Shown piece after piece: positions 8,352 through 44,111 of a stretch of DNA of 58,979 nucleotides; positions within the stretch are counted from its first letter, which is position 1, and every line of letters begins with the position of its first letter. Location of the stretch: contig JAFXQA010000014.1 in assembly GCA_017527415.1 (NCBI GenBank), forward strand, positions 1 to 58,979. The letters run 5' to 3'. Under the pieces are notes generated by a model. That model saw only the letters and a list, made by a program, of their open reading frames with translations, did no database searches and had not been told where the DNA came from. A program made the position numbers and the translations under genes. This DNA comes from Bacteroidales bacterium. GTDB taxonomy: Bacteria; Bacteroidota; Bacteroidia; Bacteroidales; UBA932.

Positions 8352-9833
8352 GTGAAGGCTCTCGACCGGGAGATACTGCGGCTGGCGCTGCCCAGCATTC
8401 TGGCGAACATCACCGTTCCGCTGGTGGGGCTGGTGGATACTGCCGTGGCCGGGCATCTGCATTCGGCGGCCGGCAGCAGCGCCGAGTTCATCGGCGGTAT
8501 CTCGGTCGGTGCCCTTATCCTAAACGTCATCTACTGGAACTTCGGCTTCCTCCGCGCCTCGACCGGTGGTTTAACGGCTCAGGCGTATGGAAAAAGCCGC
8601 AGGATACTGCCCTCTGAGGACCTGTCCACCCCCGGACAGGGGCAGGGGGAGGGGCCCGTCGCTTGCGATGGGAGGGGCCGGAGTGAGCGAAGCGAACGGA
8701 GTTCCGAAGAGGGCAGTATCCTGCGGCGGGCCCTGAGACTGGCGCTGACCATATCGGCGATACTGCTGGTGCTGGGATGGCCCTTGTCCAAACTGAGCGT
8801 TCTGTTCCGCAGCGCCAGCACCGGAGTCGCCATCCTCGCAGCGCAATACATCCTCATACGAATCTGGGCAGCCCCTGCGACCCTGAGCCTGATGGCCCTG
8901 AAGGGCTGGTTCATAGGGATGCAGGACAGCTTCAGCAGTATGATTACCGACCTCACTGTCAATCTGGTCAACATCGCCGCCAGCATTATCCTCACCCTCG
9001 GCATAGGCGGCTGGCAGGGGCTGGGCTTCCCCGGGATCGCCCTCGGAACCGTCATCGCCCAGTGGACTGGGTTCATCCTGGCGCTGGCGATCTGCCACTT
9101 CCGTTACCGGGTTCCCGTTTGTTCCGGAAAATGGACGAAAACGGGAACAAGTACCCATAAAAGTGGGGTATTGTTCCGAAAAACGGCCGAAAACGGGAAC
9201 AAATCCTTCTTCCGGATCAACGCCGACCTGTTCGTGCGTTCGCTGTGCATGACAGGCATCTATTTCGGTTACACGGTCCTGGCAGCGCGCTCCGGCGACA
9301 TCCTCCTTGCCTGCGCCAACATAATGATGAACCTGCTGATGATCTTCTCGTATTTCACTGACGGGTTCGCATATGCCGGCGAGGCGCTGACCGGGCGCTT
9401 TATCGGGGAGAGGAATCCCGAGATGCTGCGGAAGGCGGTCGGAGGAACATTCCGCTGGAGTTTCGGGGTGGCGGGCAGTTGGATTGCCATCTACCTGCTG
9501 GCCGGACTGCCTATGCTGCGGCTGATGACGGATGACCCTGTGGTGGTGGATGCGTGCCGGCAGTTCCTGCCCTGGCTGGCGGTGATGCCGCTGATAGGAT
9601 GCGCCGCCTTCACCTGGGACGGCATCTACATAGGCGCGACCGCCTCCAAGGGAATCAGGAATTCCATGATCTGGGCTGTAGTGGCTTTCTTTGCGGTATG
9701 GTTCGCGGGACACATCCTGCCGACCGCCGGAGCGGGGGCCATACACCTGCTTTTGGGCGCATATTTCGCTCACCTGGCAGCGCGCACTGTCTGCCTCAGC
9801 CTCAGGTATAAAAAGGACGTTAAGGCTACTTGA
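8352..9833 (+). CDS. MATE-family efflux transporter carrying two in-frame repeat inserts
   Basis: 493-residue multidrug/Na+ or H+ antiporter of the MATE (DinF/NorM-like) family in the inner membrane. The N-terminus EILRLALPSILANITVPLVGLVDTAVAGHL is diagnostic, and about 12 membrane helices can be traced. Two hydrophilic stretches do not belong to the family. Residues about 82-126 are encoded by a palindromic family A element. Residues about 250-285 (VCSGKWTKTGTSTHKSG...) are encoded by a tandem-hairpin family C element. Without them the protein would be close to 420 residues. Both inserts fall in loops between helices. Starts at GTG 8352 abutting the upstream stop; overlaps the convergent phosphoesterase by 8 nt. 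Confidence 0.9.
   Translation: MKALDREILRLALPSILANITVPLVGLVDTAVAGHLHSAAGSSAEFIGGISVGALILNVIYWNFGFLRASTGGLTAQAYGKSRRILPSEDLSTPGQGQGEGPVACDGRGRSERSERSSEEGSILRRALRLALTISAILLVLGWPLSKLSVLFRSASTGVAILAAQYILIRIWAAPATLSLMALKGWFIGMQDSFSSMITDLTVNLVNIAASIILTLGIGGWQGLGFPGIALGTVIAQWTGFILALAICHFRYRVPVCSGKWTKTGTSTHKSGVLFRKTAENGNKSFFRINADLFVRSLCMTGIYFGYTVLAARSGDILLACANIMMNLLMIFSYFTDGFAYAGEALTGRFIGERNPEMLRKAVGGTFRWSFGVAGSWIAIYLLAGLPMLRLMTDDPVVVDACRQFLPWLAVMPLIGCAAFTWDGIYIGATASKGIRNSMIWAVVAFFAVWFAGHILPTAGAGAIHLLLGAYFAHLAARTVCLSLRYKKDVKAT
8596..8727 (+). repeat. Family A palindromic insert in MATE gene
   Basis: Perfect 20-bp inverted arms, 8596-8615 and 8708-8727, include CAGGATACTGCCCTCT. The core between them holds GGGCCCGTCGCTTGCGATGG, then AGTGAGCGAAGCGAACGG. 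On the opposite strand the core matches the RNase R insert (CCCCTCCCATCG, GGGCCCCTCCC, AGGTCCT next to the arm). The reading frame stays open throughout. Confidence 0.9.
9119..9202 (+). repeat. Family C tandem hairpins inside MATE gene
   Basis: Two 32-nt hairpin units, 9119-9150 and 9171-9202, are spaced exactly 52 nt apart. Each begins TTGTTCCG and ends CGGGAACAA around an A-rich loop with a CGG or TGG centre. The spacer has the form CCCATAAAAGTGGGG. Unit length, period and loop style match the intergenic copies at 881-1019 and 39535-39673, but the arm sequence is different. Read in frame. Confidence 0.8.
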
Positions 9834-11025
9834 CCTTGCAGCTATAGTCGTGAGTCTGCTTACCCTCGGGGCTGAAGGCCTTGAGGGTAATGTCTTTTTT
9901 GCCGGCAGTCACCTCGAGGCGCTCGCAGTTGCTGTTCACTACAACGGGGAAATTGGCATCCGAGACGCTGCCGTCGGGCTCGTAAACCTCCCATCTGTGC
10001 AGATGGCCACTGATCATCAGGCTGATGCCGGCTTTGTTCAGCACAGGCACGAAAAGCTCGTTGATGACTTCATCTCCATGCCATCCGCCCTTGCGGGGAG
10101 GGATGTGGCCGAAGACTATGCGGACGGCGGCGTTCTTGCACTCGGGAGTTTTGATGACCTCCTCCAGCCAGCGGGCCTGGGCCTTGAGATAGGGCTCGGA
10201 GAGCATCGTGCCGGAGTATTCTATGTCGTTGTCGGGTTTATCCTCTCCGGTGTCGAGGAAGATGAAGAAGAACTTGCCGAAGCTGGCGGTGCCGTACTGC
10301 TCGCCGTCGATATAGTCGAACCAGTATTTGGAGTCCTTGCCTCGGAATTCGTGGTTGCCACGCTGTAGGAAGAGGGGCACGCTGCCCTTCAGGTTGGCGG
10401 CACCGGTGGCGAGGAACATCTCGCGGATCTTCTCCTTCCAAGCCATCGAACTCACCATATCGCCGTTGAAGACGGCAAAGTCAAGCTCTTCCGGCTTTGC
10501 GGCCTGCATCAGGACGTTCAGTATGGAATCCTTCTGGTGGATATCGTTGTAGACATCGAAGCGGACCTGGTCGTAGCTCTCCTTGAGGGTGCTGGTGGTG
10601 TAGGGATTCTTCCGGTAGACGTCGCTGCCCCAGGGGCGGGTGTAATCCACGTTAGAAGGGCCGTCGAAACTCTTCACTCCCTTCATCATTATGCGGTAAC
10701 GGTACTTCGTGCCCGGCTTGAGGCCGTCCACACGAACCTTGTGGATATTGCTGATCACCTGGTTGCCATGCCCGCGCAGGTCGTAGAACTTTGTGCGGTC
10801 CCGGTTGTAGAAGTGGGAGCCGTCATCCGGCGCAACCTCCACCCAGCCGATGGCATCCATATTGGTTTCCCAGATCACCGTGAAGCCGGTGGTGGTAGGG
10901 TTTTCTATGATCGGGCCGCAGATCGGGCGCACCTTGTCGGGGGTCTGCTGGGCCTTCTGAGGTTGAGCTTGTGCCGCGAACGCTGCACATATCGTCAAAA
11001 CGATAAATACAATTCTTTTCATCAT
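9826..11025 (-). CDS. Exported metallophosphoesterase (purple acid phosphatase-like)
   Basis: 399 residues with a cleavable signal peptide (IVFIVLTICAAFAAQA). An N-terminal Fn3-like domain (about 35-125, TTTGFTVIWETNMDAIGWVEV) precedes a calcineurin-like phosphoesterase with FDVYNDIHQ, VFNGDMV, LQRGNHEFRG, RIVFGHIPP and MISGHLHRWE motifs. This domain pair is that of purple-acid-phosphatase-type enzymes, so periplasmic or surface phosphomonoesterase activity is likely. TATATTTG at 11041-11048 (minus) gives a 15-nt leader. Convergent with and overlapping the MATE gene. Confidence 0.85.
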   Translation of the reverse strand: MMKRIVFIVLTICAAFAAQAQPQKAQQTPDKVRPICGPIIENPTTTGFTVIWETNMDAIGWVEVAPDDGSHFYNRDRTKFYDLRGHGNQVISNIHKVRVDGLKPGTKYRYRIMMKGVKSFDGPSNVDYTRPWGSDVYRKNPYTTSTLKESYDQVRFDVYNDIHQKDSILNVLMQAAKPEELDFAVFNGDMVSSMAWKEKIREMFLATGAANLKGSVPLFLQRGNHEFRGKDSKYWFDYIDGEQYGTASFGKFFFIFLDTGEDKPDNDIEYSGTMLSEPYLKAQARWLEEVIKTPECKNAAVRIVFGHIPPRKGGWHGDEVINELFVPVLNKAGISLMISGHLHRWEVYEPDGSVSDANFPVVVNSNCERLEVTAGKKDITLKAFSPEGKQTHDYSCKVK

Positions 11026-11058
11026 AACTCAAGTTTAACACAAATATAAGAAAATATA

Positions 11059-11146
11059 TGCTGTTCACGTCCTGAATTTGCGGACGTGAACGGCATTTCA
11101 GCCCTTTTTTGACGTCGACGTCCTTTTTTTTCGGACGTGAACGGCA
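11059..11146. repeat. Tandem hairpin pair upstream of rnr (family C-like)
   Basis: Two hairpins with the same right arm CGGACGTGAACGGCA at 11081 and 11132 (51 nt apart). The left arms are GCTGTTCACGTCC (one mismatch) and GACGTCGACGTCC (more degenerate). The spacer has a T-run. Located between divergent genes, so not a terminator for either. Confidence 0.75.
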
Positions 11147-11174
11147 CTCCAACCTATCTTCCAAAGTTTTTCGC

Positions 11175-11182
11175 TAACTTTG
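11175..11182 (+). promoter_or_regulatory. -7 box of rnr
   Basis: TAACTTTG matches TAnnTTTG. The ATG at 11189 follows after 6 nt, so the mRNA should start at or next to the start codon. Confidence 0.6.
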
Positions 11183-11188
11183 TGTGTT

Positions 11189-13351
11189 ATGACAAAAAGA
11201 AAGAATAAAGGCGGGAGTGGTTCCCGCAGTGGCCGGAGCGGTTCCGGCAAGGTAAGAAAGAGCGTGCCCGTATATGAGGGACGCGTGCAGATGACCCGCG
11301 AGGGGTTCATCTTTGTGATTGTTGACGGGCAGGATGACGACATCTTCGTGAAGGCATCCAAGACCCGCAATGCCCTGGACGGCGACATAGTGAAGGTGGC
11401 CGTCACCAAGCAGGGCGGTGCCAAGGCGGCCCCGAGGGCCGGAGAGAAGGCCGTCCGCAAACGCGAGGGCGAGGTGATAGAGATAGTCCAGCGCAGCGGC
11501 AAGCAGTTCGTGGGCATCTACCACACCGTGGGCGCACAGGCCTGGGTGATGATGCAGAGCAAGAATATGCCCTACGACATAGAGGTGGATGCGGAAGAGG
11601 GGGCCCGTCTCGGCGCTAAGCGCGGGATGAAGGTTTCCGCCGTGGTGGACAGATGGGGCCGAGGGGATTCCTCCCCTATCGGGCACATAGTCGACGTGCT
11701 GGGTATGCCCGGCGAGAACAATGCCGAAATGCACGCCATCCTGGCGGAGTTCAATCTCCCCTATAAATTCGAAAAGGAAGTGGAAGACGCTGCCGACGGC
11801 ATCTCCGAAGAGATTACCGCAGCGGACCTCAAGGGCCGCAAGGATTTCCGCGGCACTTTCACTTTTACCATAGACCCGGCGGATGCCAAGGACTTCGACG
11901 ATGCTCTGTCGTTCCGCAAGTTGAACAATGGCAACTACGAGGTAGGAGTGCATATCGCGGATGTGTCCTGGTACGTGAAGCCCGGTTCGGCGGTAGACAA
12001 AGAGGCCCGCGAGCGCGGCACCAGCGTGTATCTGGTAGACCGCACCGTGCCTATGCTTCCGGAGAAGCTTTGCAACAAGCTTTGCTCCCTGCGTCCCAAC
12101 GAGGATAAACTCACATATTCGGCCGTCTTCGAGATTACTCCTAAGGCGGAGATCAAGAGTCGGTGGATCGGCCGCACGATCATCAATTCGGACTTCCGTC
12201 TGGATTATGATCAGGCGCAGGCCATCATAGAATCAGGGTCTGCGGGGGATGTACCCTCACCGACCGCTCCGCAAAGCTCCGCCCCTCCCATCGAGGGCGA
12301 TGGGCCCCTCCCTCTAAGCCGAGGGTGGCGTAGGTCCTGTGAGGGTACATCCCCCGCAGACCAAACACTATGCGAAGCGATAACCATTCTGAACGGTCTG
12401 GCGGCCAAATTCAAGGAGAAGCGCTTCAAGGCTGGAGCGGTGGATTTCGACCGTCCGGAGATGAAGGTGGAGGTAGATGAGAAAGGCCGGCCGGTGGACG
12501 TCCATCAGAAGATCAGCAAGGAGGCCAACTGGCTGATAGAAGAGTTCATGTTGCTGGCGAACCGCACCGTTGCGGAGTATGTGGCCACGGACGGGCAGAT
12601 GAACGGGGTGGCTTCCAAGAAGGCCAAGACCTTCGTCTACCGTATCCACGATGTGCCTAATACAGAGAAACTTGAGAGCCTGAAGCGCTTTGCCAAGGGC
12701 TTCGGCTACAAGATGGGAGACTCCATCGAAGGCCGGGGCGCGGCAAAGAGCATCAACGCACTTATGAAGGCCGCGGCCGGCAAGCCCGAACTCGCAGCCT
12801 TCGAGGATATCGCTCTGCGCTCGATGGCCAAGGCCTGCTACAGCACAGAGAACATCGGCCACTACGGCCTCGCATTCGACTTCTACACCCACTTCACCTC
12901 CCCCATCCGCCGCTATCCGGATCTGATGGTACACCGCCTCCTTACCCTGTATCTGGCAGGCAAGGAGAGCGCCAACAAGGGTTTCTACGAGATTGAGTGC
13001 CAGCACGCATCCGAGCGCGAAGTGGTGGCCGCCGATGCCGAGCGCACCAGCGTCAAATACAAACTGGTGGAATTTATGCAGGACAAGGTCGGGCAGGAGT
13101 TCGACGGGCGCGTTTCCGGAGTGACAGAGTGGGGAATGTATGTGGAAATCGAACCCACGAAGGTGGAGGGAATGGTGTCGCTGCGCGAGATCCGGTCGGA
13201 CTTCTTCGAATTTGATGAGGAGCGCTACCGCCTGGTTGGCAAGCGCACGCACAAAATCTACCGCCTGGGAGATCCGGTCCGCATCCGCGTCAAGAACGCC
13301 AACCTCGAGCAGAGGCTGCTGGATTACGAATTAATCGAAAACCTACAATAA
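11189..13351 (+). CDS. rnr: Ribonuclease R with in-frame palindromic insert
   Basis: 720-residue processive 3'-5' exoribonuclease of the RNB family, acting on structured RNA in decay and rRNA quality control. Basic N-terminal tail, cold-shock-type OB domains (about 25-200), RNB catalytic domain (about 215-560) with the metal-binding DPADAKDFDDALS motif, then a C-terminal S1 domain (EFDGRVSGVTEWGMYVEIE). Residues about 350-392 are an insert encoded by a family A element between AQAIIESG and LCEAITILNG, a variable loop in homologues. The ATG at 11189 is preferred to an upstream TTG because the -7 box ends at 11182. First gene of an operon with YtxH, holin-like and manA genes. Confidence 0.95.
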   Translation: MTKRKNKGGSGSRSGRSGSGKVRKSVPVYEGRVQMTREGFIFVIVDGQDDDIFVKASKTRNALDGDIVKVAVTKQGGAKAAPRAGEKAVRKREGEVIEIVQRSGKQFVGIYHTVGAQAWVMMQSKNMPYDIEVDAEEGARLGAKRGMKVSAVVDRWGRGDSSPIGHIVDVLGMPGENNAEMHAILAEFNLPYKFEKEVEDAADGISEEITAADLKGRKDFRGTFTFTIDPADAKDFDDALSFRKLNNGNYEVGVHIADVSWYVKPGSAVDKEARERGTSVYLVDRTVPMLPEKLCNKLCSLRPNEDKLTYSAVFEITPKAEIKSRWIGRTIINSDFRLDYDQAQAIIESGSAGDVPSPTAPQSSAPPIEGDGPLPLSRGWRRSCEGTSPADQTLCEAITILNGLAAKFKEKRFKAGAVDFDRPEMKVEVDEKGRPVDVHQKISKEANWLIEEFMLLANRTVAEYVATDGQMNGVASKKAKTFVYRIHDVPNTEKLESLKRFAKGFGYKMGDSIEGRGAAKSINALMKAAAGKPELAAFEDIALRSMAKACYSTENIGHYGLAFDFYTHFTSPIRRYPDLMVHRLLTLYLAGKESANKGFYEIECQHASEREVVAADAERTSVKYKLVEFMQDKVGQEFDGRVSGVTEWGMYVEIEPTKVEGMVSLREIRSDFFEFDEERYRLVGKRTHKIYRLGDPVRIRVKNANLEQRLLDYELIENLQ
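12237..12362 (+). repeat. Family A palindromic insert in rnr
   Basis: Perfect 24-bp inverted arms, 12237-12260 and 12339-12362 (containing GGGGATGTACCCTCAC). The core GCTCCGCCCCTCCCATCG...GATGGGCCCCTCCC...GAGGGTGG..AGGTCCT aligns with the MATE insert read in the opposite orientation. The arm sequences at the two loci are unrelated. Open reading frame is maintained. Confidence 0.92.
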
Positions 13352-13352
13352 T

Positions 13353-13610
13353 ATGGCAAACAATTCTTTCTTTGGATTTCTGGCAGGAGCCGCCATCGGG
13401 GCCCTTGCCGCCGCATATCTCCTCTCAGATAAGGGCAAGGAGGACGCCGAACGACTGAAGCAGGCTGCGGGAGACCTTGCCGAGAAGGCTAAGAACAAGG
13501 CCGGCGAAGTGGCCGACACCGTTATGGATACTGTCTCGAAAGGGCTTGACGAACTGGAGAATGCACTGAATAAAAAGGATAAGCCGGCAGAGGAGCCGGA
13601 AACGGTATGA
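13353..13610 (+). CDS. YtxH domain small membrane protein
   Basis: 85 residues. An N-terminal glycine-zipper membrane segment (FFGFLAGAAIGALAAAYLL) is followed by a charged amphipathic helix (KGKEDAERLKQAAGDLAEKAKNK). This is the YtxH pattern, often linked to envelope or general stress, but no biochemical role is known. Starts 1 nt after rnr and overlaps the next gene by ATGA, so it is translationally coupled. Confidence 0.85.
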   Translation: MANNSFFGFLAGAAIGALAAAYLLSDKGKEDAERLKQAAGDLAEKAKNKAGEVADTVMDTVSKGLDELENALNKKDKPAEEPETV

Positions 13611-14038
13611 ATACACGCGATTACGTCGACCTGCGTATCGAACAGCTCAAGCTGAAAGGCAGCGACACCGCATCCAAAGCACTCGGCGCCGTTCTCTCCT
13701 GGTTCCTGATCATTGCCGTCGCCCTTCTGTTCCTTACCATGCTGGTGCTGGCAGGCACCCTGTTCCTGGGTAAGTGGCTGGATAATTATGCCCTCGGGGC
13801 TTTGATTGTCTGCGGGGCACTGCTACTGATTCTGCTTATTCTTTTCTGCTGCCGTAAAAAGATGTTCCGCGACGAGTTTGCACACAATCTAAGCGGCAAA
13901 AAGGACTACAAGGATCTGGTGCATAGCGAGGAACTGCTGGATGTCCGCCTTCAGGACAACAACACCGATTTCCTGGGCTGGGGCAGCCTCGGCCTCCGTT
14001 TCGTGCGCATTCTGCTTCGCGTTTTAGTACGTAAATAG
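13607..14038 (+). CDS. Putative Actinobacterial Holin-X / phage-holin-III-like membrane protein
   Basis: 143 residues with two adjacent transmembrane helices (about 28-53 and 60-83, LSWFLIIAVALLFLTMLVLAG and ALIVCGALLLILLILF) and charged ends. This layout and the N-terminal YVDLRIEQLKLKGS resemble the family annotated as phage holin III, which in Bacteroidetes is chromosomal and normally sits beside YtxH genes. No phage genes are nearby, so a lytic role is not implied. Confidence 0.7.
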   Translation: MNTRDYVDLRIEQLKLKGSDTASKALGAVLSWFLIIAVALLFLTMLVLAGTLFLGKWLDNYALGALIVCGALLLILLILFCCRKKMFRDEFAHNLSGKKDYKDLVHSEELLDVRLQDNNTDFLGWGSLGLRFVRILLRVLVRK

Positions 14039-14041
14039 ATT

Positions 14042-14905: not shown

Positions 14906-14909
14906 CGCC

Positions 14910-16463: not shown

Positions 16464-16464
16464 C

Positions 16465-17257: not shown

Positions 17258-17281
17258 ACGCCGCTACTTAGGGCGTTTTTG
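17258..17281 (+). terminator. Rho-independent terminator of gpmA
   Basis: Stem AACGCC / GGCGTT around GCTACTTAG with a T-run. The 3' half, GGCGTTTTTGG, is also the outer end of the RAYT element, so element and terminator overlap. Confidence 0.7.
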
Positions 17282-17305
17282 GCAAATCGTTGATATTCAA
17301 TTAAT

Positions 17306-17346
17306 TACAGAATCAGGTCGGCAAAATGTGCCGACCTGATTCTGTA
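17306..17346. repeat. REP-like palindrome, left of RAYT
   Basis: Perfect 17-bp arms (TACAGAATCAGGTCGGC and its complement) around AAAATGT. Confidence 0.9.
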
Positions 17347-17449
17347 TATCCTTATTATTCAACGACTTACATATAACGGAACTATTGATTCAGTTTTTAC
17401 CCCCTATCGTACCTACAACAATTACAATAACAATGCGTATTTTGCCCGT

Positions 17450-18367
17450 ATGAAAACGATATTACCCGGGCAGCCGCACCACGTGTACCAGAGATCATTC
17501 GACAGAGGGCTGCTCTTCTATACTGCAGCGGATGTCCTCACATACTTCACAATCTATATGACGTATGCGCGTCTATTCAAGATAACTGTATTGGGTGTCT
17601 GCCCTATGCGCGACCACGTACATGGTATGATTATTCCGCCAAGTAAAGAAATGATGGCGAAATTCGAAGGTGCGACCAACAGGGCTTACGCAGTGGAATT
17701 CAATATCGATACGGGAACGAAGGGCCCAGTGTTTGAGCATTCATATAGTTTTGCCGCAAGAAAAGACTTGAAAAAGATACGTTCCAGCTTAATATATCTA
17801 TACAATAATCCTGTAGAAAAGCATCTATGCAACAAGGCAATAGACGCCCGATGGAATTTCCTCGCATATGGTTTCAGTCCAAATCCGTTTTCAGAGCCAT
17901 TGGTGATCAGGAAAGCATCCAGGTCTATGAATAAATGCATCGAAGAGGTAAAATATATGAGGTCGCAGAACAAATACCTGAATCAGAGAATGATACACAG
18001 GTTGTTCAAGAGTCTTGACAGCCGGGAACGGGCGCAACTAGCAGACTATATTGTAATCACATACTCTGCCATCGACTACAAGAAACTGTTTTCGTATTGG
18101 AAAACTCCAGAAATAATGCTGCTAGCTATGGATTCGACGACCGGAGCAGAATACGATATCGGCGAAAAAGTGAACAAGGCTCTCTCCGATAAGGCCTATT
18201 CTACAATCGCACATTTTCTTGAAAAGGATTATGGATACAAACGGGCAAAGGATGTCTTGATACTTCCTGAAAGGAACAGGATGAATCTTTTGACTGAACT
18301 CATTATCCATACAGATGTCAGCGAGTACCAGATTAAGAAGTTCCTACATCTTGATGTCGGATTGTAA
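17450..18367 (+). CDS. REP-associated tyrosine transposase (Y1 HUH family)
   Basis: 305 residues. The N-terminal half is a TnpA_REP/IS200-like HUH endonuclease: HHVYQRSFDRGLLF at residue 8, the HUH metal motif in MRDHVHGMI (about 51-59), and the catalytic-tyrosine helix SLIYLYNNPVEKHLC (about 110-124). The extra C-terminal 150 residues are unassigned but are usual for long Bacteroidetes RAYTs. Such proteins nick single-stranded REP hairpins and are thought to spread REP sequences. Codons are clearly more AT-rich than the flanking gpmA and M3 peptidase genes, which suggests acquisition. Confidence 0.88.
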   Translation: MKTILPGQPHHVYQRSFDRGLLFYTAADVLTYFTIYMTYARLFKITVLGVCPMRDHVHGMIIPPSKEMMAKFEGATNRAYAVEFNIDTGTKGPVFEHSYSFAARKDLKKIRSSLIYLYNNPVEKHLCNKAIDARWNFLAYGFSPNPFSEPLVIRKASRSMNKCIEEVKYMRSQNKYLNQRMIHRLFKSLDSRERAQLADYIVITYSAIDYKKLFSYWKTPEIMLLAMDSTTGAEYDIGEKVNKALSDKAYSTIAHFLEKDYGYKRAKDVLILPERNRMNLLTELIIHTDVSEYQIKKFLHLDVGL

Positions 18368-18400
18368 GCGTTTTTCACAACTATTTGAATTATAGTAGTT

Positions 18401-18441
18401 TACAGAATCAGGTCAGCAAAATTTACTGACCTGATTCTGTA
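18401..18441. repeat. REP-like palindrome, right of RAYT
   Basis: Perfect arms of at least 16 bp (TACAGAATCAGGTCAG) around CAAAATTTA. Compared with the left copy, base changes in the stem are compensated on both sides (GGC/GCC versus AG/CT). Confidence 0.9.
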
Positions 18442-18546
18442 AAATATTGAATGTCAATTGATTACCAAAAACGCCTCTTCAACACCTGGCAAAAAACCGT
18501 AAATCGCAAACGATTCAGCCGCGAAGCGCGTCAGGTGCTGGCCAGG

Positions 18547-36916: not shown

Positions 36917-36950
36917 ATACTTTATTGTGTGAATATATTTATTCGTGGTG

Positions 36951-36979
36951 CGAAGATAATATAATTTCTTGTATCTTTG
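36951..36979. promoter_or_regulatory. Divergent promoters of Oar-like receptor and metK
   Basis: Plus strand TATCTTTG (36972-36979) for metK, 60 nt before its ATG. Minus strand TATCTTCG (36951-36958), one mismatch from the -7 consensus, for the receptor gene. No SAM riboswitch structure was recognised in the 60-nt metK leader. Confidence 0.5.
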
Positions 36980-37039
36980 CACCCCGAAGGGGAAAGATTT
37001 GACTGATTGCAACCCCTGTAATTTTAAAAAAATGCTAAA

Positions 37040-38329
37040 ATGAATTATCTCTTCACATCCGAGAGTGTCTCGGAAGGGCATCCCGACAAGGTTGCCGACC
37101 AGATTTCAGATTCCATTCTAGATGAGTTCCTCCGCCAGGATCCGGAGGCGAAAGTCGCGTGCGAGACCTTCTGCACCGCCGGCTTGGTGGTAGTTGGAGG
37201 CGAGGTCCAGTCCAGCGCGTATGTAGACATAGACCAAGTCGCACGCGAAACCATTGCCCGCATAGGTTATACCAAGGCAGAATACGGCTTCGACGCTTCT
37301 TCCTGCGGGATTATTTCTACCATCCATGGCCAGAGCGCGGACATCAACCGCGGCGTCGTGCGTTCCAACGAAATGGATCAGGGCGCCGGCGACCAGGGAA
37401 TGATGTTCGGCTATGCCTGCAAGAATACGCCCGAGTATATGCCGCTGGCACTGTCGCTATCGCACCGGTTGCTGAAGGTGCTGGCAGATATACGGCATAA
37501 CAATTCATCCGCGACGGGCAAAAGGCCCGTCAGTGACCCACAAGGGGCCGACTGTACGGGCATTGCCCGTCCGCAGGCCACTGCAGTTATGCCATATCTG
37601 CGGCCGGATGCCAAGGCGCAATTTTCGGTGGAATTCGACGGGCAGACTCATCGCCCGTTGCGCGTCCACACCATAGTTCTGAGCACCCAGCACGATGAGT
37701 TCGATACGGACGAAACTATGCACGCCAGGATCGAGAAGGACGTCCGCGAGATAGTGCTGCCCCGCCTGATCGCCAGTCTGCCGCCGCAATTGGCCGCCCT
37801 GTTCGACGACAAGTTTATCCTTCACGTCAACCCCACCGGCAAGTTCGTGATCGGCGGCCCTGCCGGAGACACCGGCCTCACCGGACGTAAGATCATCGTG
37901 GATACTTATGGCGGACGCGGAGCCCACGGCGGTGGCGCCTTCTCCGGAAAGGATCCTTCGAAAGTAGACCGCAGCGCAGCATACGCAGCCCGCTGGCTCG
38001 CCAAGAACCTGGTCGCCGCCGGCGTGGCCTCCGAATGCCTCGTGCAGCTAGCCTATGCCATCGGCGTGGCCGAGCCAGTGAGCGTCTACGTAAACTCTTA
38101 TGGTACAGGCGCTTGCAGCGATGCCGAGATAGCAGTCCGCCTGCGTGAACTCTTCGATCTCCGCCCCGCCGCCATCGTTCGCCGCTTCGGCCTCAAGAAC
38201 CCCATCTACGCCCCCACCGCCGCCTACGGTCACTTCGGCCGCGAGCCCTACGTGAAAGACGGCATCCAGTTCTTCGGCTGGGAAAAACTCGACGCGGTGG
38301 ACTTGCTCCGCTCCGCCTTCGAGCTGTAG
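37040..38329 (+). CDS. metK: S-adenosylmethionine synthase with in-frame palindromic insert
   Basis: 429 residues. Makes SAM from methionine and [24 protein letters not shown] (start), [12 protein letters not shown] (ATP-binding signature 1) and [22 protein letters not shown] (signature 2) are all present. Between ADIR (about residue 149) and PYLRPDAK (about 185) there are about 28 unexpected residues ([17 protein letters not shown]...), encoded by a family B element, where relatives have a turn of only a few residues. As MetK is usually essential, the insert is presumably tolerated. Followed by a strong hairpin shared with the convergent gene. Confidence 0.95.
37484..37601 (+). repeat. Family B palindromic insert in metK
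   Basis: Outer arms GCAGATAT(AC)GGCATAAC at 37484-37501 and GTTATGCCATATCTGC at 37586-37601 (2-nt bulge). Inner arms GACGGGCAA (37513-37521) and TTGCCCGTC (37563-37571). The core TGACCCACAAGGGGCCGACT matches the miaA insert (TGGCCCACAAGGGGCCGCC). The encoded peptide matches the miaA insert in the same frame. Confidence 0.88.
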
Positions 38330-38362
38330 CCGTTCCAGGCAGAACCCTGATTATCAACTATT

Positions 38363-38406
38363 TAGCTAAAATGGGTTGCCCGTTTTTGGGCAACCCATTT
38401 TAGCTA
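38363..38406. terminator. Bidirectional terminator hairpin, metK / threonine aldolase
   Basis: Perfect 19-bp arms TAGCTAAAATGGGTTGCCC and complement around GTTTTT, between convergent genes. Preceded by TGATTATCAAC, a motif also next to the REP-like remnant at 43108-43215, so it may be repeat-derived. Confidence 0.75.
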
Positions 38407-38426
38407 TTATTCTTATTACCAATATG

Positions 38427-39458
38427 TTACAAGGAACGGCAAGAAATGAGAAAATCAATTGCCTCCTGCTTGGTTGCCCAGGAAGTGGCGAAGCGGGTGA
38501 CAAATCGGCCGTCCGGGAGTTTCTCCCAAACCTCGAAAGCAACCTTTCCCTCCAGTTCAGCCATCTGCTCGGCCGTAAGGATGGGAAACTGCTGATTTGT
38601 TGGCGAATTGATATAAAAAGGCACTCCAGCTTGTTCAAAAACAGCTTTGAGCTTTGTGGCCATTTCAATTGCGTGCTTGCTTAACTTCAGGTAAAGATTG
38701 TTCGTAAATAACGTGGCGAACTGAATGCCCAGCAGGCGGCCTTTTGCCAGAAGGGCTCCGTGCATCTTGATATGGGTAAAGAAGTGCCTGGGAGCGTTTC
38801 CATTCGGAAAGATGACAGCCTCACCACAAAGAGCACCCACTTTCGTGCCGCCGATATAGAACACATCACAAAGGTGGGCAATACCTTCCATATCCACATC
38901 CGCCGCCGGGCTGGCGAGACCATACCCGAGACGGGCGCCATCAATGAACAGGGGGAGTTTATATTTCTGGCAAATGGTGTGTATGGATTCCAATTCGGCG
39001 CGGGTGTAGATGGTGCCGTATTCGGTTGGAAATGAGATATATACCATCCCCGGCTGCACCATATGGGGATAAGTTTCATCGGCATAAAAACCCTCAAGCC
39101 AGGCCTCCAGATCCCCGGCATCCATCTTTCCTTCGTGCTGGGGCAGGGTCAAGACCTTGTGTCCGCTGAACTCGATGGCGCCTGCTTCGTGGACTGCGAT
39201 GTGTCCGGTTTGCACCGCAAGAACACCCTGACATCTCTCCAGCATCCCGTCAATGACAGTACTGTTGGTCTGGGTTCCGCCCACAAGAAAGAATATATCT
39301 GCATTGGGGCAGCCTATGGCCTCTCTGATTCTTGTTTTGGCCTCCGTGCAGAAAGAATCCTCTCCATAACCGGGCTCCTGCTGCATATTGGTCTCCGCAA
39401 GGCGCTTCAGGATTTCCGGATGCGCCCCTTCGGTATAGTCGCAAGTGAATGAATACAT
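38427..39458 (-). CDS. Low-specificity L-threonine aldolase-type PLP enzyme
   Basis: 343 residues, the beta-eliminating lyase/threonine aldolase family: cleaves L-threonine or allo-threonine to glycine and acetaldehyde with PLP. VGGTQTNSTVIDGML (cofactor phosphate), FIDGARLGYGLASP (Asp pairing with PLP) and DVFYIGGTKVGALCGEA with the Schiff-base Lys are visible. The TACTTTTG box at 39463-39470 lies 4 nt before the ATG, implying a leaderless transcript. Confidence 0.85.
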   Translation of the reverse strand: MYSFTCDYTEGAHPEILKRLAETNMQQEPGYGEDSFCTEAKTRIREAIGCPNADIFFLVGGTQTNSTVIDGMLERCQGVLAVQTGHIAVHEAGAIEFSGHKVLTLPQHEGKMDAGDLEAWLEGFYADETYPHMVQPGMVYISFPTEYGTIYTRAELESIHTICQKYKLPLFIDGARLGYGLASPAADVDMEGIAHLCDVFYIGGTKVGALCGEAVIFPNGNAPRHFFTHIKMHGALLAKGRLLGIQFATLFTNNLYLKLSKHAIEMATKLKAVFEQAGVPFYINSPTNQQFPILTAEQMAELEGKVAFEVWEKLPDGRFVTRFATSWATKQEAIDFLISCRSL

Positions 39459-39462
39459 AGTG

Positions 39463-39470
39463 CAAAAGTA
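39463..39470 (-). promoter_or_regulatory. -7 box of threonine aldolase gene
   Basis: TACTTTTG on the minus strand, 4 nt from the start codon. Confidence 0.6.
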
Positions 39471-39534
39471 AATAAATGTCTTGATTATCCAAAAAAACGC
39501 CTGGAATTATGGATAGCTATCGATATTCAATGGG

Positions 39535-39673
39535 ACCTGTAGAGGTTTTGCCGGGTTTCCTCGACGGGTAGGGAGAAAAATGGCCGACCTGTAGAGGTTT
39601 TGCGGGTTTTTCTCGACAGGTAGGGGGCTTTTGGGCGGCACCTGTATAGAAAATGCGGTTATTCTCTACAGGT
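39535..39673. repeat. Family C tandem-hairpin element, intergenic copy 2
   Basis: Three hairpins at 39535, 39587 and 39640 (spacing 52 and 53 nt, total 139 nt), with arms ACCTGTAGAG or ACCTGTATAG and CTCGACAGGT or CTCTACAGGT. Aligned unit by unit with 881-1019. The upstream flank has CCAAAAAAACGCC and CGATATTCAA, similar to the RAYT element's end sequences. Confidence 0.9.
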
Positions 39674-39714
39674 ACGACTGGAGATGGCCGCATTGCTGTA
39701 GCCAAAAACGGAAT

Positions 39715-40767
39715 TTACAGCAGCCGGCAGATTTTTTCGAGCCAGAGGGCGTCGGTGGCATCGAATGTGGCGAGGGAGGTGCTGTCGATGTCCAGCACGG
39801 CGGAGACCTGCGGACTGGCAATGGCGGTCACGGAAGTTTTTTGAGCGAGCCTGTGCGTGGCGGTAGCGGAGTGACCGCCATCGCCAGTCGCGGAAAGCCC
39901 GGTGGGTGCAGTGCTGGCAAAGACAGGCACCACGATCTCCGAGCGGGAGAGGCTGCTGCAGGCGATGTGACCTGGGAAGGCTTCGACGTCGGGAACGACC
40001 ACGGTACGCGCCTCTTTCCAGGCAGTGCCGCAAACCCCGCGGCCATAGGCGATGCGAAGACAGGCGGGCGGCCCCTGGAAAGGCCCCAACACCAATTCAC
40101 GACCAAGACCAGAACCATTGCCAACGGCATCCCGGACTACATAGAATCCAACCCAGAAGAACTTCATCCTTTCATAGATGAGCGCAGCGGTCTCAGCCAT
40201 TCGGGCAACAGGATCCGGTTCATCCTCAATAAGAGCCGCAAGATCCTGATACAGACGCAGATACTTAAAAACGCGTGCAGGCAGATGGCAGTATCCGTCA
40301 GGATTCTTGTCCAGATACAGCTGGTGCCTCTCCTCAGCCTCGAAGAAGTTCCGGAGGAGCTCCAACTCAACCACCAGCGGTTGGCCGATACGGGCCTCGA
40401 CGGCAGAGTAAACTCCCTGAAGCACAGGCAGATCCGCAGGATCAGAATAATAGATTCCAGTGCGATAACGGGTGCCTTCATCGTGCCCCTGCCGGTTCAT
40501 GCTGAGGGGATCGATGATGCTGAAAAAGAGGTCCGCCAGAGTCTCCAGGGAGATGCGCTCAGGCCTATAGCACACGCGCACGGTTTCGGCAAAGCCGGTG
40601 GTGTCGGTGTAAACCTGCTCATACGAAGGGCGTCCGTCAAATTCGGGTGAGCCCTGGGCATAGCCGCTCGTTGCCGAAACTACGCCGTCTACACCGGAAA
40701 AGAAGTGCTCGGTACCCCAGAAGCATCCTCCTGCGAAATATATCAATTTTGTATCTGCCATAGTCAT
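39715..40767 (-). CDS. msrA: MsrA - free-methionine-(R)-sulfoxide reductase fusion with in-frame insert
   Basis: 350 residues. Residues about 8-165 are MsrA, reducing methionine-S-sulfoxide (catalytic Cys in FAGGCFWGTEH; GYAQG, HDEGTRYRTGIYY). Residues about 175-350 are a GAF-type fRMsr domain with its three cysteines in GPFQGPPACLRI, GRGVCGTAW and HIACSSLSRSEIVVP, then VLDIDS. Together they would reduce both diastereomers, the R form as free methionine sulfoxide. Residues about 284-326 interrupt the fRMsr domain between PVFAS and VSAVLDIDS and derive from a family B element. Start is either of two Mets (40767 or 40761). Confidence 0.88.
   Translation of the reverse strand: MTMADTKLIYFAGGCFWGTEHFFSGVDGVVSATSGYAQGSPEFDGRPSYEQVYTDTTGFAETVRVCYRPERISLETLADLFFSIIDPLSMNRQGHDEGTRYRTGIYYSDPADLPVLQGVYSAVEARIGQPLVVELELLRNFFEAEERHQLYLDKNPDGYCHLPARVFKYLRLYQDLAALIEDEPDPVARMAETAALIYERMKFFWVGFYVVRDAVGNGSGLGRELVLGPFQGPPACLRIAYGRGVCGTAWKEARTVVVPDVEAFPGHIACSSLSRSEIVVPVFASTAPTGLSATGDGGHSATATHRLAQKTSVTAIASPQVSAVLDIDSTSLATFDATDALWLEKICRLL
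39792..39917 (-). repeat. Family B palindromic insert in msrA fusion
   Basis: Inner arms GACTGGCAATGGCGGTCAC (39813-39831) and its complement at 39871-39889 (18 of 19 pairs). Outer CCAGCAC/GTGCTGG (39792-39798, 39911-39917). Edge sequences CTTTCCGCGA and TCCGCAGGTC (coding strand) match the metK and miaA inserts; the central loop is different. Confidence 0.85.
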
Positions 40768-40773
40768 AATGAG

Positions 40774-41649
40774 TTAGACCTCCACCCAGTGGATGATGAC
40801 CCCGCTGCGCTCCATCCCGCGGAACCAGGTCATCTGCCGCTTCGCGAACTGATGGATGGCAGTGGAGAGTTTATCGTACAGTTCCTGCTCGGTCAGTTCG
40901 CCCCGCAGGAACAAGGTAACATATTTATACTCAAGGCCGTAGCCTATCAGCGTTTCGGCCGGCACGCCGCGTTCCAGCAAGCCCCGGATCTCGTCTATCA
41001 TCCCCTCCTCCAGACGCGCCTTCAGACGCGCATCGATGCGGGCGTTGCGGACCTCACGGCTGACAAGGGTGCCGATATAGAATGTCAGTGGGGAGGCCGT
41101 CGGAGAAGCAATGCCCGTACTGGCGGCCCCTTGTGGGCCACAGACGGGCCCTTTGCTTCTCGCGGAAAGCCCCTCCGACACCGGCATACTCAGCGGCTTC
41201 CTTGAGCGGAAGTCATAACCCGCGGTAACGGCGTTGATATACAGCCCGGTGCCGCCGCAGAGAATGGCCACTTTGCCACGGGCGCGGATATCCGAAAAAA
41301 CCACCCGGAAATCCTGCACGAAATCGTAAACATTATATTGAGTGCCAGCCTCGCGGATATCTATCAGATGATACGGAATCTCCTGATACTCAGAAAGATC
41401 CTTTCCCGTACCTATATCCATCCCACGGTAAACCTGCCGCGAATCCGCGGAGATGATTTCCGCCGGAAGCCCAAGGGCAGCCAGATTCCGCGCAAGGCGC
41501 ACCGCATACTTTGTCTTGCCCGAAGCCGTCGGCCCCAGCACGCATACCAGATCCACCGCCCCCGAACGAAGGTCGGCGGCAAGCGCATCCAGGTTAATTA
41601 TTTCCGGCTCCGGCAACTCGGCCGGCAGGGGTTTACGGAACTTCGGCAT
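40774..41649 (-). CDS. miaA: tRNA dimethylallyltransferase-like protein with in-frame insert
   Basis: 291 residues. Adds dimethylallyl to A37 of tRNAs reading U-starting codons. P-loop VLGPTASGKTKYAVRLA (about residue 38), ISADSRQVYRGMDIGTGK, the catalytic Asp/Thr region, and LIGYGLEYKYVTLFLRGEL with KRQMTWFRGM near the C-terminus are MiaA motifs. The segment from about 157 to 189 (PVSEGLSARSKGPVCGPQGA...) is encoded by a family B element. The region around it is shorter than in canonical MiaA, so part of the DMAPP/tRNA-contact domain may be reduced. Start ATG 41649 lies 6 nt after a TATATTTG box. Confidence 0.82.
   Translation of the reverse strand: MPKFRKPLPAELPEPEIINLDALAADLRSGAVDLVCVLGPTASGKTKYAVRLARNLAALGLPAEIISADSRQVYRGMDIGTGKDLSEYQEIPYHLIDIREAGTQYNVYDFVQDFRVVFSDIRARGKVAILCGGTGLYINAVTAGYDFRSRKPLSMPVSEGLSARSKGPVCGPQGAASTGIASPTASPLTFYIGTLVSREVRNARIDARLKARLEEGMIDEIRGLLERGVPAETLIGYGLEYKYVTLFLRGELTEQELYDKLSTAIHQFAKRQMTWFRGMERSGVIIHWVEV
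41085..41180 (-). repeat. Family B palindromic insert in miaA
   Basis: Inner arms GAGAAGCAA (41103-41111) and TTGCTTCTC (41153-41161), with ATGCCCGT/ACGGGC extending inward. Imperfect outer arms GTCAGTGGGG (41085-41094) and CCCCTCCGAC (41171-41180). Core GGCCCCTTGTGGGCCACAGA matches metK. Length 96 nt, a multiple of three. Confidence 0.85.
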
Positions 41650-41655
41650 ATTCTA

Positions 41656-41737
41656 CAAATATAGTGATTCTGAGCAAAGGGGATGGTACTCTTAAGTTGC
41701 AAAGTTAGAAATTCGCGAGAAATTTCTAACTTTGCAA
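41656..41737. promoter_or_regulatory. Divergent miaA/smpB promoter with 17-bp perfect inverted repeat
   Basis: TATATTTG (minus, 41656-41663) precedes the miaA ATG by 6 nt. TAACTTTG (plus, 41727-41734) precedes the smpB ATG by 12 nt. That box lies in one arm of a perfect inverted repeat TTGCAAAGTTAGAAATT (41697-41713) and its complement (41721-41737), so a second TAACTTTG points the other way. Confidence 0.7.
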
Positions 41738-41746
41738 CCCCTAATT

Positions 41747-42196
41747 ATGCCGAAAGCGAAGAGTTCCATACAGATACGCAACAAGCGCGCAAGTTTCGAC
41801 TACGAATTCATCGAGACTTACGACGCAGGCATAGTGCTGGTCGGCACCGAAATCAAGAGCCTGCGCGCCGGCAAGGCATCCCTTCAGGACGCGTTCTGCT
41901 ACTTTGTGAACGGGGAGCTCTATGTGAAGGGGATGAACATCGCCACCTACTTCTGGGGCAGCTGGAACGGCCACGAACCGATGCGGGACCGCAAGCTCCT
42001 CCTCACCAAGCGCGAACTCAGGCACCTTGCCCAGGCGGTTAAAACCAAAGGCCTTACCATCGTGGCGGTGCGCCTCTACATCGCCGACAACGGCTACGCC
42101 AAACTCCACATCGCCCTCGCCCGGGGCAAGAAGGAATACGACAAGCGCCAGTCCATCAAGGAGAAGGACGCTCGCAGGGAGATGGAGAGAGGATAA
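41747..42196 (+). CDS. smpB: SsrA-binding protein SmpB
   Basis: 149 residues. Partner of tmRNA in rescuing stalled ribosomes. [22 protein letters not shown] is the conserved N-terminal barrel, [17 protein letters not shown] the tmRNA-contact block, and the basic C-terminal tail [22 protein letters not shown] is the part that enters the mRNA channel. The start is the ATG at 41747; an upstream in-frame Met would begin inside the promoter. The tmRNA gene is not in this window. Confidence 0.95.
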
Positions 42197-42203
42197 AAAA
42201 CAG

Positions 42204-42230
42204 AACGCAGGCCTTTCGGTCTGCGTTTTT
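42204..42230 (+). terminator. Rho-independent terminator of smpB
   Basis: Stem AACGCAGGCC / GGTCTGCGTT with loop TTTC and a terminal T-run. It lies directly before the 3' end of the convergent tRNA gene. Confidence 0.88.
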
Positions 42231-42231
42231 G

Positions 42232-42304
<73 letters not shown>

Positions 42305-42335
42305 GATTGGGACTGCAAAGATAGAAATAATTTTT

Positions 42336-43070
42336 CTAAAACAAATACCCCAGCCCGAAATTCATGGAAAACAGCCAGCGGATGGGGGTGTCCTGCGGAT
42401 GGACGGTGGTTTCGTTGGCGCTGTAGATGCGATAGTTCTCGGTGAAATTGTAGTGGACTACCGGGCTCATATTGATGGTGAAGCGCCATATACGCCAGGA
42501 GAAATTCACGCCTGCATCTGCCGAGCAGAAGAAACTCCCGGCTTTGCGGATGCCGTGGTATTCCTTATAGGTGTTGCCGTCAAGGCCAGTATACCAGGCA
42601 GTATGGATATTGTCTCCCCCGGAGATGAATCCCGGAGTGATGCCGACATAGAATTCCGCACGGCTGATCAGACTCAGCAGGAACACCGCGAACATATCCA
42701 CCACCAGATTGTCGCTGTCCCATACAAACGCATCGATCAGGTCGATGGCGGCCAGGGCTCCGTAGGTGTAGGCCTCGTTTGGAGTGCGCATACCGGTGCG
42801 GACCGACAAAGCCAAAGGAAAACGAACAAAGTCTTCAACTCCCAGATATTCAGGCATATACTGAACACCGAAACGAGCGCCCATATGAGGGCTATAGTAC
42901 TTACTATAGTTCAACCAGTAATTTGCATCGGACCCAATGTGGTTGTCGAAAGTCGCCCCAGCCCCGATGCCGAAACTCAGCTCCTGGGTAAAGGCGTTCG
43001 GGTTGATGCGCTGCCCCGCTGCAGGCAAAGCAAAGACCAATATAATGAGTGCAAATAATACTCTTTTCAT
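42336..43070 (-). CDS. Putative outer-membrane beta-barrel protein, unknown function
   Basis: 244 residues from the ATG at 43070, giving a signal peptide (VLFALIILVFALPAAGQ). Alternating hydrophobic strands, high Tyr/Phe/Gly content and a C-terminal aromatic (MNFGLGYLF) fit an outer-membrane barrel. No family is recognised with confidence. The upstream Met (43091) is rejected because a TAACTTTG box at 43079-43086 overlaps it. Monocistronic, downstream of a REP-like remnant on the other side. Confidence 0.6.
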   Translation of the reverse strand: MKRVLFALIILVFALPAAGQRINPNAFTQELSFGIGAGATFDNHIGSDANYWLNYSKYYSPHMGARFGVQYMPEYLGVEDFVRFPLALSVRTGMRTPNEAYTYGALAAIDLIDAFVWDSDNLVVDMFAVFLLSLISRAEFYVGITPGFISGGDNIHTAWYTGLDGNTYKEYHGIRKAGSFFCSADAGVNFSWRIWRFTINMSPVVHYNFTENYRIYSANETTVHPQDTPIRWLFSMNFGLGYLF

Positions 43071-43078
43071 ATCGACCG

Positions 43079-43086
43079 CAAAGTTA
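43079..43086 (-). promoter_or_regulatory. -7 box of outer-membrane protein gene
   Basis: TAACTTTG on the minus strand, 8 nt before the ATG at 43070. It decides the start by lying within the longer open frame. Confidence 0.55.
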
Positions 43087-43107
43087 GCCATTTTTTATAA
43101 TAAAAAT

Positions 43108-43215
43108 GCGTTGCAGCCAAGTGCCTGAATATCAATATTTTCCTGAAACAGGTCGTCATTTCTTGTCGACCAGTTTTAGATAATCGCCTGATTATCAACC
43201 TGTTAAACAAAACGC
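43108..43215. repeat. Diverged REP-like copy resembling RAYT flanks
   Basis: Order GCGTT...CTGAATATCAATATTTT...AACAGGTCG then a small hairpin AGGTCG/CGACC, then TGATTATCAACC and AAAACGC. The same order and several of the same words occur at both ends of the RAYT unit (GGCGTT, TTGATATTCAAT, AATCAGGTCGGC). No transposase gene is present here. Confidence 0.6.
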
Positions 43216-43226
43216 ACCAGACAGGA

Positions 43227-44111
43227 CTACTGCCGTTGCCGGACGGCTTCGTAAAGAAGGATGGCGGCGGAGACGCTGACGTTGAGCGAATCGAGGCGGC
43301 CGAGCATAGGAATGAGGATGTGGGCGTCGGCGGCGCTTCGCCAGACGGGGGTGAGGCCGGTGGCCTCGGTGCCCATTACCAGGGCTGTGCCGCAGGTCAT
43401 ATCCACATCATAGTAGGGAGATGAATCCTGGAGTTGGGCGGTGAGGATGCGTATGCCACGGGCCTTGAGGAAGGCGATGGCCTCCTCGGATGAGCAGCAG
43501 ACGACGGGGACGGTGAAGATTGCGCCGATGCTGGCGCGGATGAGGTTGGGGTTGTAGAGGTCGGTGAGGGGGTCGCAGATGATGACTGCATCGGCTCCAG
43601 CGGCATCGGCGCTGCGAAGGACGGCGCCCAGATTTCCGGGTTTCTCCACCCCTTCCAGCACCATCACGAGGGGATTATCCTTCAGTGCCAGATCGTCCAG
43701 TGTCAGATATTTCGCCTTTACCTCTGCGATTATCCCCTCCGTACTCCCCCGGTACGCCACTTTTTCGTATAGATCTTTACTGATGTGAAACTCCCTCGCT
43801 GCAGGGTAGTGATATACCCCCTGAGGGAGTTCGCCCTTTGGGCTCACCCCACCATCCCTTCGGGACGGTCCCCCCGCTATCGAACCGCGGGTGTTACGTC
43901 CCTCAGGGGGTATATCACTACCTGCAGCAGCAATTTCCGGGCAAATGAATACCGATTCCACGGCAAACCCGGCGGCAACGCAATGCTCCAACTCGCGGCG
44001 CCCTTCAACCACGAAAACCCCTTCCGAACGGCGCAGACGGGACTTTTCCTGAAGTGCTAGGAGGCGCTTCAGCTTGGGATTCTGGGCAGATGTGATCAGT
44101 TCCGGGGTCAT
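43227..44111 (-). CDS. TrmH/SpoU-family RNA 2'-O-methyltransferase with in-frame insert
   Basis: 294 residues. An N-terminal substrate-binding domain (ELITSAQNPKLKRLLAL, GVFVVEGRRELEHCV) is followed by the SPOUT knot: VMVLEGVEKPGNLGAVLRSAD (motif 1), VMGTEATGLTPVW (motif 2), IPMLGRLDSLNVSVSAAI (motif 3), the SAM and catalytic Arg/Asn region. Probably methylates rRNA or tRNA ribose. Residues about 61-105 (GSDIPPEGRNTRGSIAGG...) are a family A insert in the linker between the two domains; without it the length is close to the family's 250. Overlaps the upstream gene by 4 nt. Confidence 0.9.
   Translation of the reverse strand: MTPELITSAQNPKLKRLLALQEKSRLRRSEGVFVVEGRRELEHCVAAGFAVESVFICPEIAAAGSDIPPEGRNTRGSIAGGPSRRDGGVSPKGELPQGVYHYPAAREFHISKDLYEKVAYRGSTEGIIAEVKAKYLTLDDLALKDNPLVMVLEGVEKPGNLGAVLRSADAAGADAVIICDPLTDLYNPNLIRASIGAIFTVPVVCCSSEEAIAFLKARGIRILTAQLQDSSPYYDVDMTCGTALVMGTEATGLTPVWRSAADAHILIPMLGRLDSLNVSVSAAILLYEAVRQRQ
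43799..43928 (-). repeat. Family A palindromic insert in trmH-family gene
   Basis: Perfect 24-bp arms at 43805-43828 and 43899-43922 (containing GATATACCCCCTGAGGGA), extended by GCTGCAG on both sides after a one-base bulge. The core (GTTCGCCC..GGGCTCACCCC...GGGACGG..CCGCGGGTG) aligns in order with the MATE core, more diverged than RNase R. Confidence 0.88.

Follow-up and report, generated by a model that had tools for sequence, protein, structure and literature searches.

In-frame palindromes within protein-coding genes are, to our knowledge, best known from Rickettsia, and we know of no mechanism for them. The window analysed here (positions 1 to 58,979, the whole 58,979-nt stretch, of contig JAFXQA010000014.1; assembly GCA_017527415.1, a Bacteroidales bacterium of UBA932) contained six palindromic inserts, each in frame in a MATE, rnr, metK, msrA, miaA or rlmB/trmH-family gene. 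These inserts are almost certainly related dispersed elements and not artefacts. A constant core was combined with locus-specific complementary arms, which points to a structured single-stranded DNA (ssDNA) or RNA intermediate, a reading absent from the initial annotation of the window. No report of such elements in Bacteroidales was found among the papers listed by searches of the open-licence PubMed Central (PMC) literature.

Rickettsia palindromic elements (RPE) are described as palindromic repeats of ~150 bp that insert in frame into unrelated protein-coding genes, with several families per genome (PMC10969869). The present inserts were likewise palindromic, about 100-150 bp long and in frame in unrelated genes. 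However, RPE are described with a conserved peptide (PMC10969869), whereas read-through here occurred in both core directions, with different peptides at one miaB site. RPE repeats are also described as losing their repeat identity over time (PMC6649704), whereas the arms here changed yet stayed matched. Unlike RPE, the present elements had a constant core, variable arms, and covariation and a pseudoknot in the core. The family works like RPE, but lacks the conserved peptide and reverses the usual anatomy. No RPE model, of which NCBIfam presumably contains one, was among the NCBIfam matches of the six host proteins, the RPE sequences themselves not having been compared directly.

REP and REPIN sequences are described as hairpins of high copy number whose changes are compensatory and which are presumed to be moved, as ssDNA, by a genome-encoded RAYT (PMC3116915, PMC6006769), and RAYT subclass 2.6, mostly from Bacteroidetes, is described as having atypical flanking structures (PMC6006769). 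A RAYT gene was present in the same genome here too. In contrast, REPINs are described with conserved ends, a less conserved spacer and a mainly extragenic location, whereas the present elements had variable ends, a constant middle and copies within genes. The GTAG/GTGG tetranucleotide of the REP foot was missing from the arm profile, and element copies did not as a rule flank the RAYT genes, the nearby hairpins being mostly of other sequence. Miniature inverted-repeat transposable elements (MITEs), described as small, non-autonomous, high in copy number and both intergenic and intragenic (PMC10969869), share those features, but the present elements had no conserved terminal inverted repeats and, at the two readable sites, no direct target duplication. 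For Nematomorpha mitochondria, perfect inverted repeats are described within genes that are translated; their arms fall in conserved coding sequence, gain and loss are dynamic, and template switching is the proposed cause (PMC6649704). Those palindromes are mitochondrial, and the account of them in that source describes no common core or mobile family. The same source describes palindromic elements that interrupt genes of Magnusiomyces mitochondria and are translationally bypassed (PMC6649704); the frames here were open, so bypass is unnecessary.

The initial annotation had reported six in-frame palindromic inserts in two families, and all six were recovered with open frames. NCBIfam named the hosts as genes for a MATE-family transporter, RNase R, methionine adenosyltransferase, an MsrA-domain protein, MiaA and an RlmB/TrmH-family methyltransferase, several of the matches being under the curated cut-offs. 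Core A was common to the MATE and rnr elements (85% over 40 bp). The former was located at 8596..8727 (+) in the MATE-family gene (8352-9833, +) with perfect arms of 20 bp; the latter was located at 12237..12362 (-) in rnr (11180-13351, +) with perfect arms of 24 bp. A covariance model of core A, R1, matched both, at 8615-8704 (+) and 12260-12339 (-, the structured strand), and both copies belonged to its training set. The rlmB/trmH-family gene (43227-44111, -) carried a divergent, A-like core at 43805..43922 (-) without an R1 match at E<=0.01; its arms were perfect over 24 bp, with GCTGCA/TGCAGC further out around a 1-nt bulge. Core B was common to metK and miaA (82% over 72 bp). The metK element (37484..37601, +; host gene 37040-38329, +) had 16 arm pairs, a bulge of 2 nt and an inner stem of 9 bp, and the extra segment of MetK lay between query residues 155 and 183 in the alignment to solved MetK structures. 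The miaA element (41085..41180, -; host gene 40774-41649, -) had an inner 9-bp stem, GAGAAGCAA/TTGCTTCTC, and imperfect outer pairing. A third core, C, of 39 nt was found in the msrA-fusion gene (39715-40767, -), where the element at 39792..39917 (-) had 19-nt arms with one mismatch (39813-39831 / 39871-39889). By core sequence there are at least three families, not two, and the perfect arms of 20-24 bp claimed for family A held for three of four copies (MATE, rnr and rlmB) and failed for the fourth.

The elements were widespread in the genus. With up to 31 training copies among its matches and counted in the total, R1 matched 51 of 61 genus genomes, with 744 matches in all and a maximum of 48 in one genome. 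The window's own genome had 12 matches, or 10 with the stricter class-wide scoring, 8 of these 10 being non-training copies. In the class-wide search none of 394 other genomes matched, the own genome being the sole match of 395, although the stricter Infernal filters may lose weak matches and the number of the 394 that share genus or family with the window genome is not shown. BLAST with the rnr element found 18 of 36 other genus genomes and none of 24 same-order genomes. An order-wide BLAST with a 60-nt core from another genus genome, G019, left the own genome itself unmatched and was uninformative, and the covariance model was used in its place. On 33 named loci R1 had one match (L047, uncultured Bacteroidales, at a contig end), and the closest named metK relatives were rumen and gut metagenome-assembled genomes. 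One 100-bp element used as query found no match in plasmid and phage collections. The proposed likeness to Rickettsia was borne out by in-frame inserts in unrelated conserved genes across the genus. The label of a coding-palindrome system was too narrow, as many copies were intergenic: among 68 long hairpins listed (some of other families), 15 were scored as read through, a coding fraction that is a lower bound because the hexamer gene-caller misses true coding copies (the window msrA and rlmB copies were missed).

Alignments of the cores showed that family A read GCCACCCTCGGC-nn-TAAGAGGGAGGGGCCC-hairpin-GGGAGGG-hairpin on one strand, termed R. The structure of core A consisted of P2, P3 and P4, with CCCTC of the P2 loop pairing with GAGGG as a pseudoknot, and 91.1% of cells were paired in 30 distinct sequences. 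The covariation score was 0.223 against 0.100 for shuffled alignments, and 0 of 500 shuffles were as high. Pairs in P2 alternated between C-G and U-A, and the variable pseudoknot pair, in which changes were mostly compensatory, was T-A in 82 of 88 copies, C-G in 4 and G-C in 1, with one mismatch. The pseudoknot read CCCGC/GCGGG in the rnr copy of G009 and in rlmB, where it is a possible pseudoknot. In hairpin P3, 149 Watson-Crick, 16 G.U and 0 A.C pairs were counted on the R strand.

The closing arms were ~20-30 bp long and 94% Watson-Crick, and their sequence differed from copy to copy. Pairs were counted after 85 distinct core matches had been reduced to 49 and, by de-duplication, to 46; copies with an arm score <28 were dropped, as were locus L010, five loci of G016 whose arms were near-identical, and the rlmB copy of the window, its divergent core having matched out of register. 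In these 46 elements the R strand had 1,243 Watson-Crick, 35 G.U, 12 A.C and 28 other arm pairs. Of the 12 coding copies checked, 7 had the core in the direction of the gene and 5 in the opposite direction. Because G.U was favoured over A.C on the R strand in P3 and in the arms whichever way the gene ran, a folded single strand appears to be under selection, not mRNA as such, and the strand-specific form suggests ssDNA or a separate RNA.

Two G019 copies (L156 and L157) had nearly identical cores and unrelated arms, and such pairs are hard to reconcile with arms that belong invariably to the element. Arm G+C content followed that of the local flank (rho 0.45, p=0.002, n=45), whereas core G+C did not (rho 0.19, p=0.21). 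Arm information peaked beside the core, at 0.3-0.89 bits in the first four bases, and was 0.04-0.69 bits beyond them. Positions 7-9 were pyrimidine-rich and positions 16-18 purine-rich (up to 0.69 bits), with 0.04-0.10 bits between; such blocks around an unconstrained stretch could result from a target preference. Paired arm changes were seen between same-site copies at rnr in G015/G082, upstream of a mutL-like gene in G019/G005 and at miaB in G019/G062. Near-identical arms of G016 (L180, L182-L185, L188) suggested arm inheritance, but several of these copies also share flanks and probably belong to a larger repeat. Copies L166 and L168 of G014 also shared arms; the two copies in L168 lay 200 bp apart, and L166 is unexplained.

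The same sites were compared at the DNA level with G069, which by rnr was closest to the window among the searched genomes (90-91% protein identity either side of the rnr site). The rnr site of G069 was empty and held a 10-bp hairpin with a 7-nt loop, GGTCTGCGGG-ggatgta-CCCGCAGACC. The left arm of the window element aligned to this hairpin over 17 to 23 nt, and its right arm held an inverted copy of the hairpin loop; the net insertion was 99 bp (141 against 42 nt). In rlmB, also empty in G069, the left arm aligned to the host up to ..GGTATA, and TATATCACTACC of the right arm was an inverted copy of the left arm and missing from G069. At both sites one arm thus aligned to the empty site and the other held its inverted copy, from which we infer target-built outer arms. 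Direct target duplication was not seen at either site, the flanking alignments overlapping by just 6 nt with a single mismatch at rnr and by 1 nt at rlmB. The msrA site was also empty in G069 (18 nt against 111). The metK site of G069 was filled with core B in the opposite orientation (80% over 71 bp, on the strand opposite to the gene alignment), the miaA site carried core B in the window and core C in G069, and both MATE sites were filled with unrelated inserts, that of G069 being ~120 nt. One site can therefore take different cores in either direction. Two other candidate pairs were rejected: at L004 G069 carried another insert and was no clean empty site, and the intergenic pair L163/L017 was too divergent for reading.

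Comparison across the genus showed the same pattern of filled and empty sites. At metK, 13 aligned relatives had no insert, and 19 of 22 rows of a wider comparison were empty, the window, G069 and G009 being filled. Reading of the rnr site covered 30 species in 31 rows (G069 appears twice), and an A-type or A-like element was found in four (window, G009, G015 and G082). No A-type element was seen in the remaining species, G069 keeping its short hairpin; a 75-nt segment in G008 (L126) is a possible relic and was counted as unfilled. Among the sites read in a gene that we take to be miaB, six were filled, with the core forward in G019 and G062 and reversed in G028, G034, G078 and G081. A presumed RlmI-like gene was filled in G008 and empty in G082, with a short hairpin TCCAGGC-gtc-GCCTGGA. 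All 20 filled coding sites (8 gene sites, window and relatives) were a multiple of 3 nt and stop-free; filled status was scored by eye from DNA, and two of the 20 (MATE in G069 and metK in G009) were inserts of unclassified type. Other repeats were also observed at tolerant sites, in rnr of G006 (L129) and miaB of G005 (L261), with GCGAAGCGAAGG / TGCTGAGCGAAGTGAAGCATC; the G006 insert was palindromic and of another type. Since such repeats share these sites, the linkers look like general insertion hot spots.

Judged from sequence comparison, the elements very probably are, or were, mobile. In the proposed mechanism, to which we give an even chance as a whole, the element would be a non-autonomous mobile hairpin with outer arms built from the target. 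It would move in single-stranded, folded form, the strand being that with GCCACCCTC...GAGGGAGGGGCCC in core A, and would enter linkers that tolerate it, in many cases at a small inverted repeat of the host or close to one. The inner arm end alone (~10 nt beside the core) would travel with it. Snap-back or gap-filling synthesis would then make the outer arm by copying one target flank to the other side, giving an inverted and not a direct target duplication; a REP-type HUH transposase (RAYT) would act in trans, and inserts that keep the frame would persist as extra linker residues. Two processes fit the arms and may act together: one flank of the target would be copied in inverted form at insertion, and template switching would later correct one arm against the other. 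We know of no described transposon for which inverted target copying is an insertion outcome, although no exhaustive search was made. We tentatively suggest, as possible rather than probable, a new class of mobile element whose folded core would be the sole moving part, entering as ssDNA and copying one flank inverted to make its closing arms. If this is true, each insertion would be sealed in a custom perfect hairpin, in either direction, with a core exchangeable at the site and a linker gained by the host protein. With hundreds of copies in one genus, sites that are filled or empty, cores in both orientations and a structure that covaries, the mechanism by which coding palindromes spread can be tested.

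As the enzyme, a RAYT-like HUH (Y1) transposase of 305 aa with motifs DHVH and YLYNNP, encoded in the window at 17450..18367 (+), is a candidate that might act in trans. It matched NF047646 REP_Tyr_transpos (E=6.8e-5) and Y1_Tnp (E=0.0044), both under cut-off, and shared 41% identity with another RAYT-like protein encoded in the same genome. REP-like hairpins lay upstream (17274..17378) and downstream (18368..18474) of the gene; the former was unrelated to the insert cores by eye, and the two shared ACAGAATCAGGTC. The region 17274-18474 is likely a REPtron, under the PF01797 threshold. HUH Y1 transposase matches were found in 46 of 61 genus genomes. Y1 matches and elements occurred together in 45 genomes, Y1 alone in 1, elements alone in 6 and neither in 9 (Fisher p=2.6e-6, uncorrected for phylogeny); for the 31 genomes >=85% complete the counts were 22/0/3/6 (p=1e-4). 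In a partial rnr tree of 30 species, species free of both element and Y1 appeared in at least two places. Besides the uncorrected phylogeny, several results spoke against this role of the enzyme. Six genomes had elements and no Y1 match, and one divergent RAYT at least, that of the window, escaped the Y1 search. Among 20 Y1 neighbourhoods read for hairpins, 17 held hairpins of other sequence, 2 held none and 1 an element. A total of 127.7 kb around Y1 genes, from 26 loci with 25 distinct Y1 matches, held only two element matches, both in the own genome, and RAYT flanks as the source of the core were rejected since elements were not concentrated there. REP-type HUH transposases are the best candidate enzyme on co-occurrence, the proximity evidence being negative, and a RAYT acting on the insert elements is possible but less likely than not.

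The proposed hairpin mechanism also has to be weighed against several observations. Movement itself was not observed. Target copying was read from two clean filled/empty DNA pairs, rnr and rlmB, and the msrA and MATE sites gave no clear picture of it. By the rnr gene tree G069 could represent a loss, its short hairpin then being a deletion footprint and not a target. In core A, 88 of 500 shuffles reached the observed count of further pair types, which is not exceptional (one of five measures), and the outer P4 was just 61.8% paired. The structure was drawn from one of the core's own sequences, so the slide control leans in its favour, and covariation was tested on core A, with cores B and C outside the test. 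The excess of G.U over A.C in the arms (p=0.001) came from wobble counts of related copies, which are not independent. In metK both arms, 37484-37501 and 37586-37601, are codons for conserved host residues (ADIRHN and VMPYL), and neither is a plain insertion. Randomisation of synonymous codons in the metK flanks reached the observed arm pairing in 2 of 20,000 trials, a fit that outward extension of the arms would give. Such extension belongs to an explanation in which the inserts are Rickettsia-type, MITE-like coding palindromes that carry their own arms, with fast divergence and with template switching during replication that keeps the arms matched and slowly extends them into the flanks. The symmetric changes between same-site copies of rnr, miaB and the mutL-like upstream site, and the inner arm sequence partly common to copies, agree with it as well. 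We nevertheless consider it unlikely, if credible: near-identical cores with unrelated outer arms in one genome would require arms that evolve far faster than the core, arm composition tracks the flank, and a bias towards G.U rather than A.C on a single strand does not follow from template switching alone.

Another explanation is an RNA element that functions in transcripts, whether by regulation, by self-cleavage or as a segment bypassed by the ribosome, and whose structure is selected at each site; it would account for the covarying, pseudoknotted core and for G.U being favoured on one strand. It is improbable, as the core can point with or against the gene, at the single miaB site too, the host genes are scattered and unrelated, and every filled coding site was in frame and stop-free, which splicing or bypass would not need. 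No element matched Rfam 15, in which the window at gathering gave only a tRNA and a SAM-II riboswitch and the six loci at E<=1 gave only tRNA, and the six inserts had no Pfam match. That the inserts are unrelated ancestral loops of the host proteins would fit the variable-length linkers seen at these sites in many relatives, but DNA cores are common to unrelated genes and one site can hold different cores. The initial annotation had named ancestral loops in sister genomes as a refutation; G069 was without insert at rnr, msrA and rlmB, and this explanation is now highly improbable. Its judgement that an assembly artefact is unlikely was upheld. Inverted chimeras from assembly or amplification might be suspected from copies of some relatives at contig ends (e.g., L010, L170/L171), but matches occurred in 51 of the 61 species, many within long contigs, and sister species had different, matched arms at the same sites, so that an artefact has hardly any probability left.

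Further features were observed in the window and in related genomes. The SAM-II riboswitch was at the start of metK (36983-37048, +; Rfam RF01726, 60.6 bits), and the tRNA gene was at 42232-42304 (-). In miaB of G017 (L170 / L171), two elements stood in tandem, and the two contigs overlapped at the repeat. A further insert family was noted in G069, where the MATE site (L154) and a ComEA-like gene (L243) shared CCCCTAAwGTACCCyGCGGCTC. Elsewhere in the own genome, in-frame copies were located in the linker of what we take to be a dihydrolipoamide-acyltransferase-like protein (L205, 5671-5751) and in the linker of a presumably ComEA-like helix-hairpin-helix protein (L202, 4878-5008).

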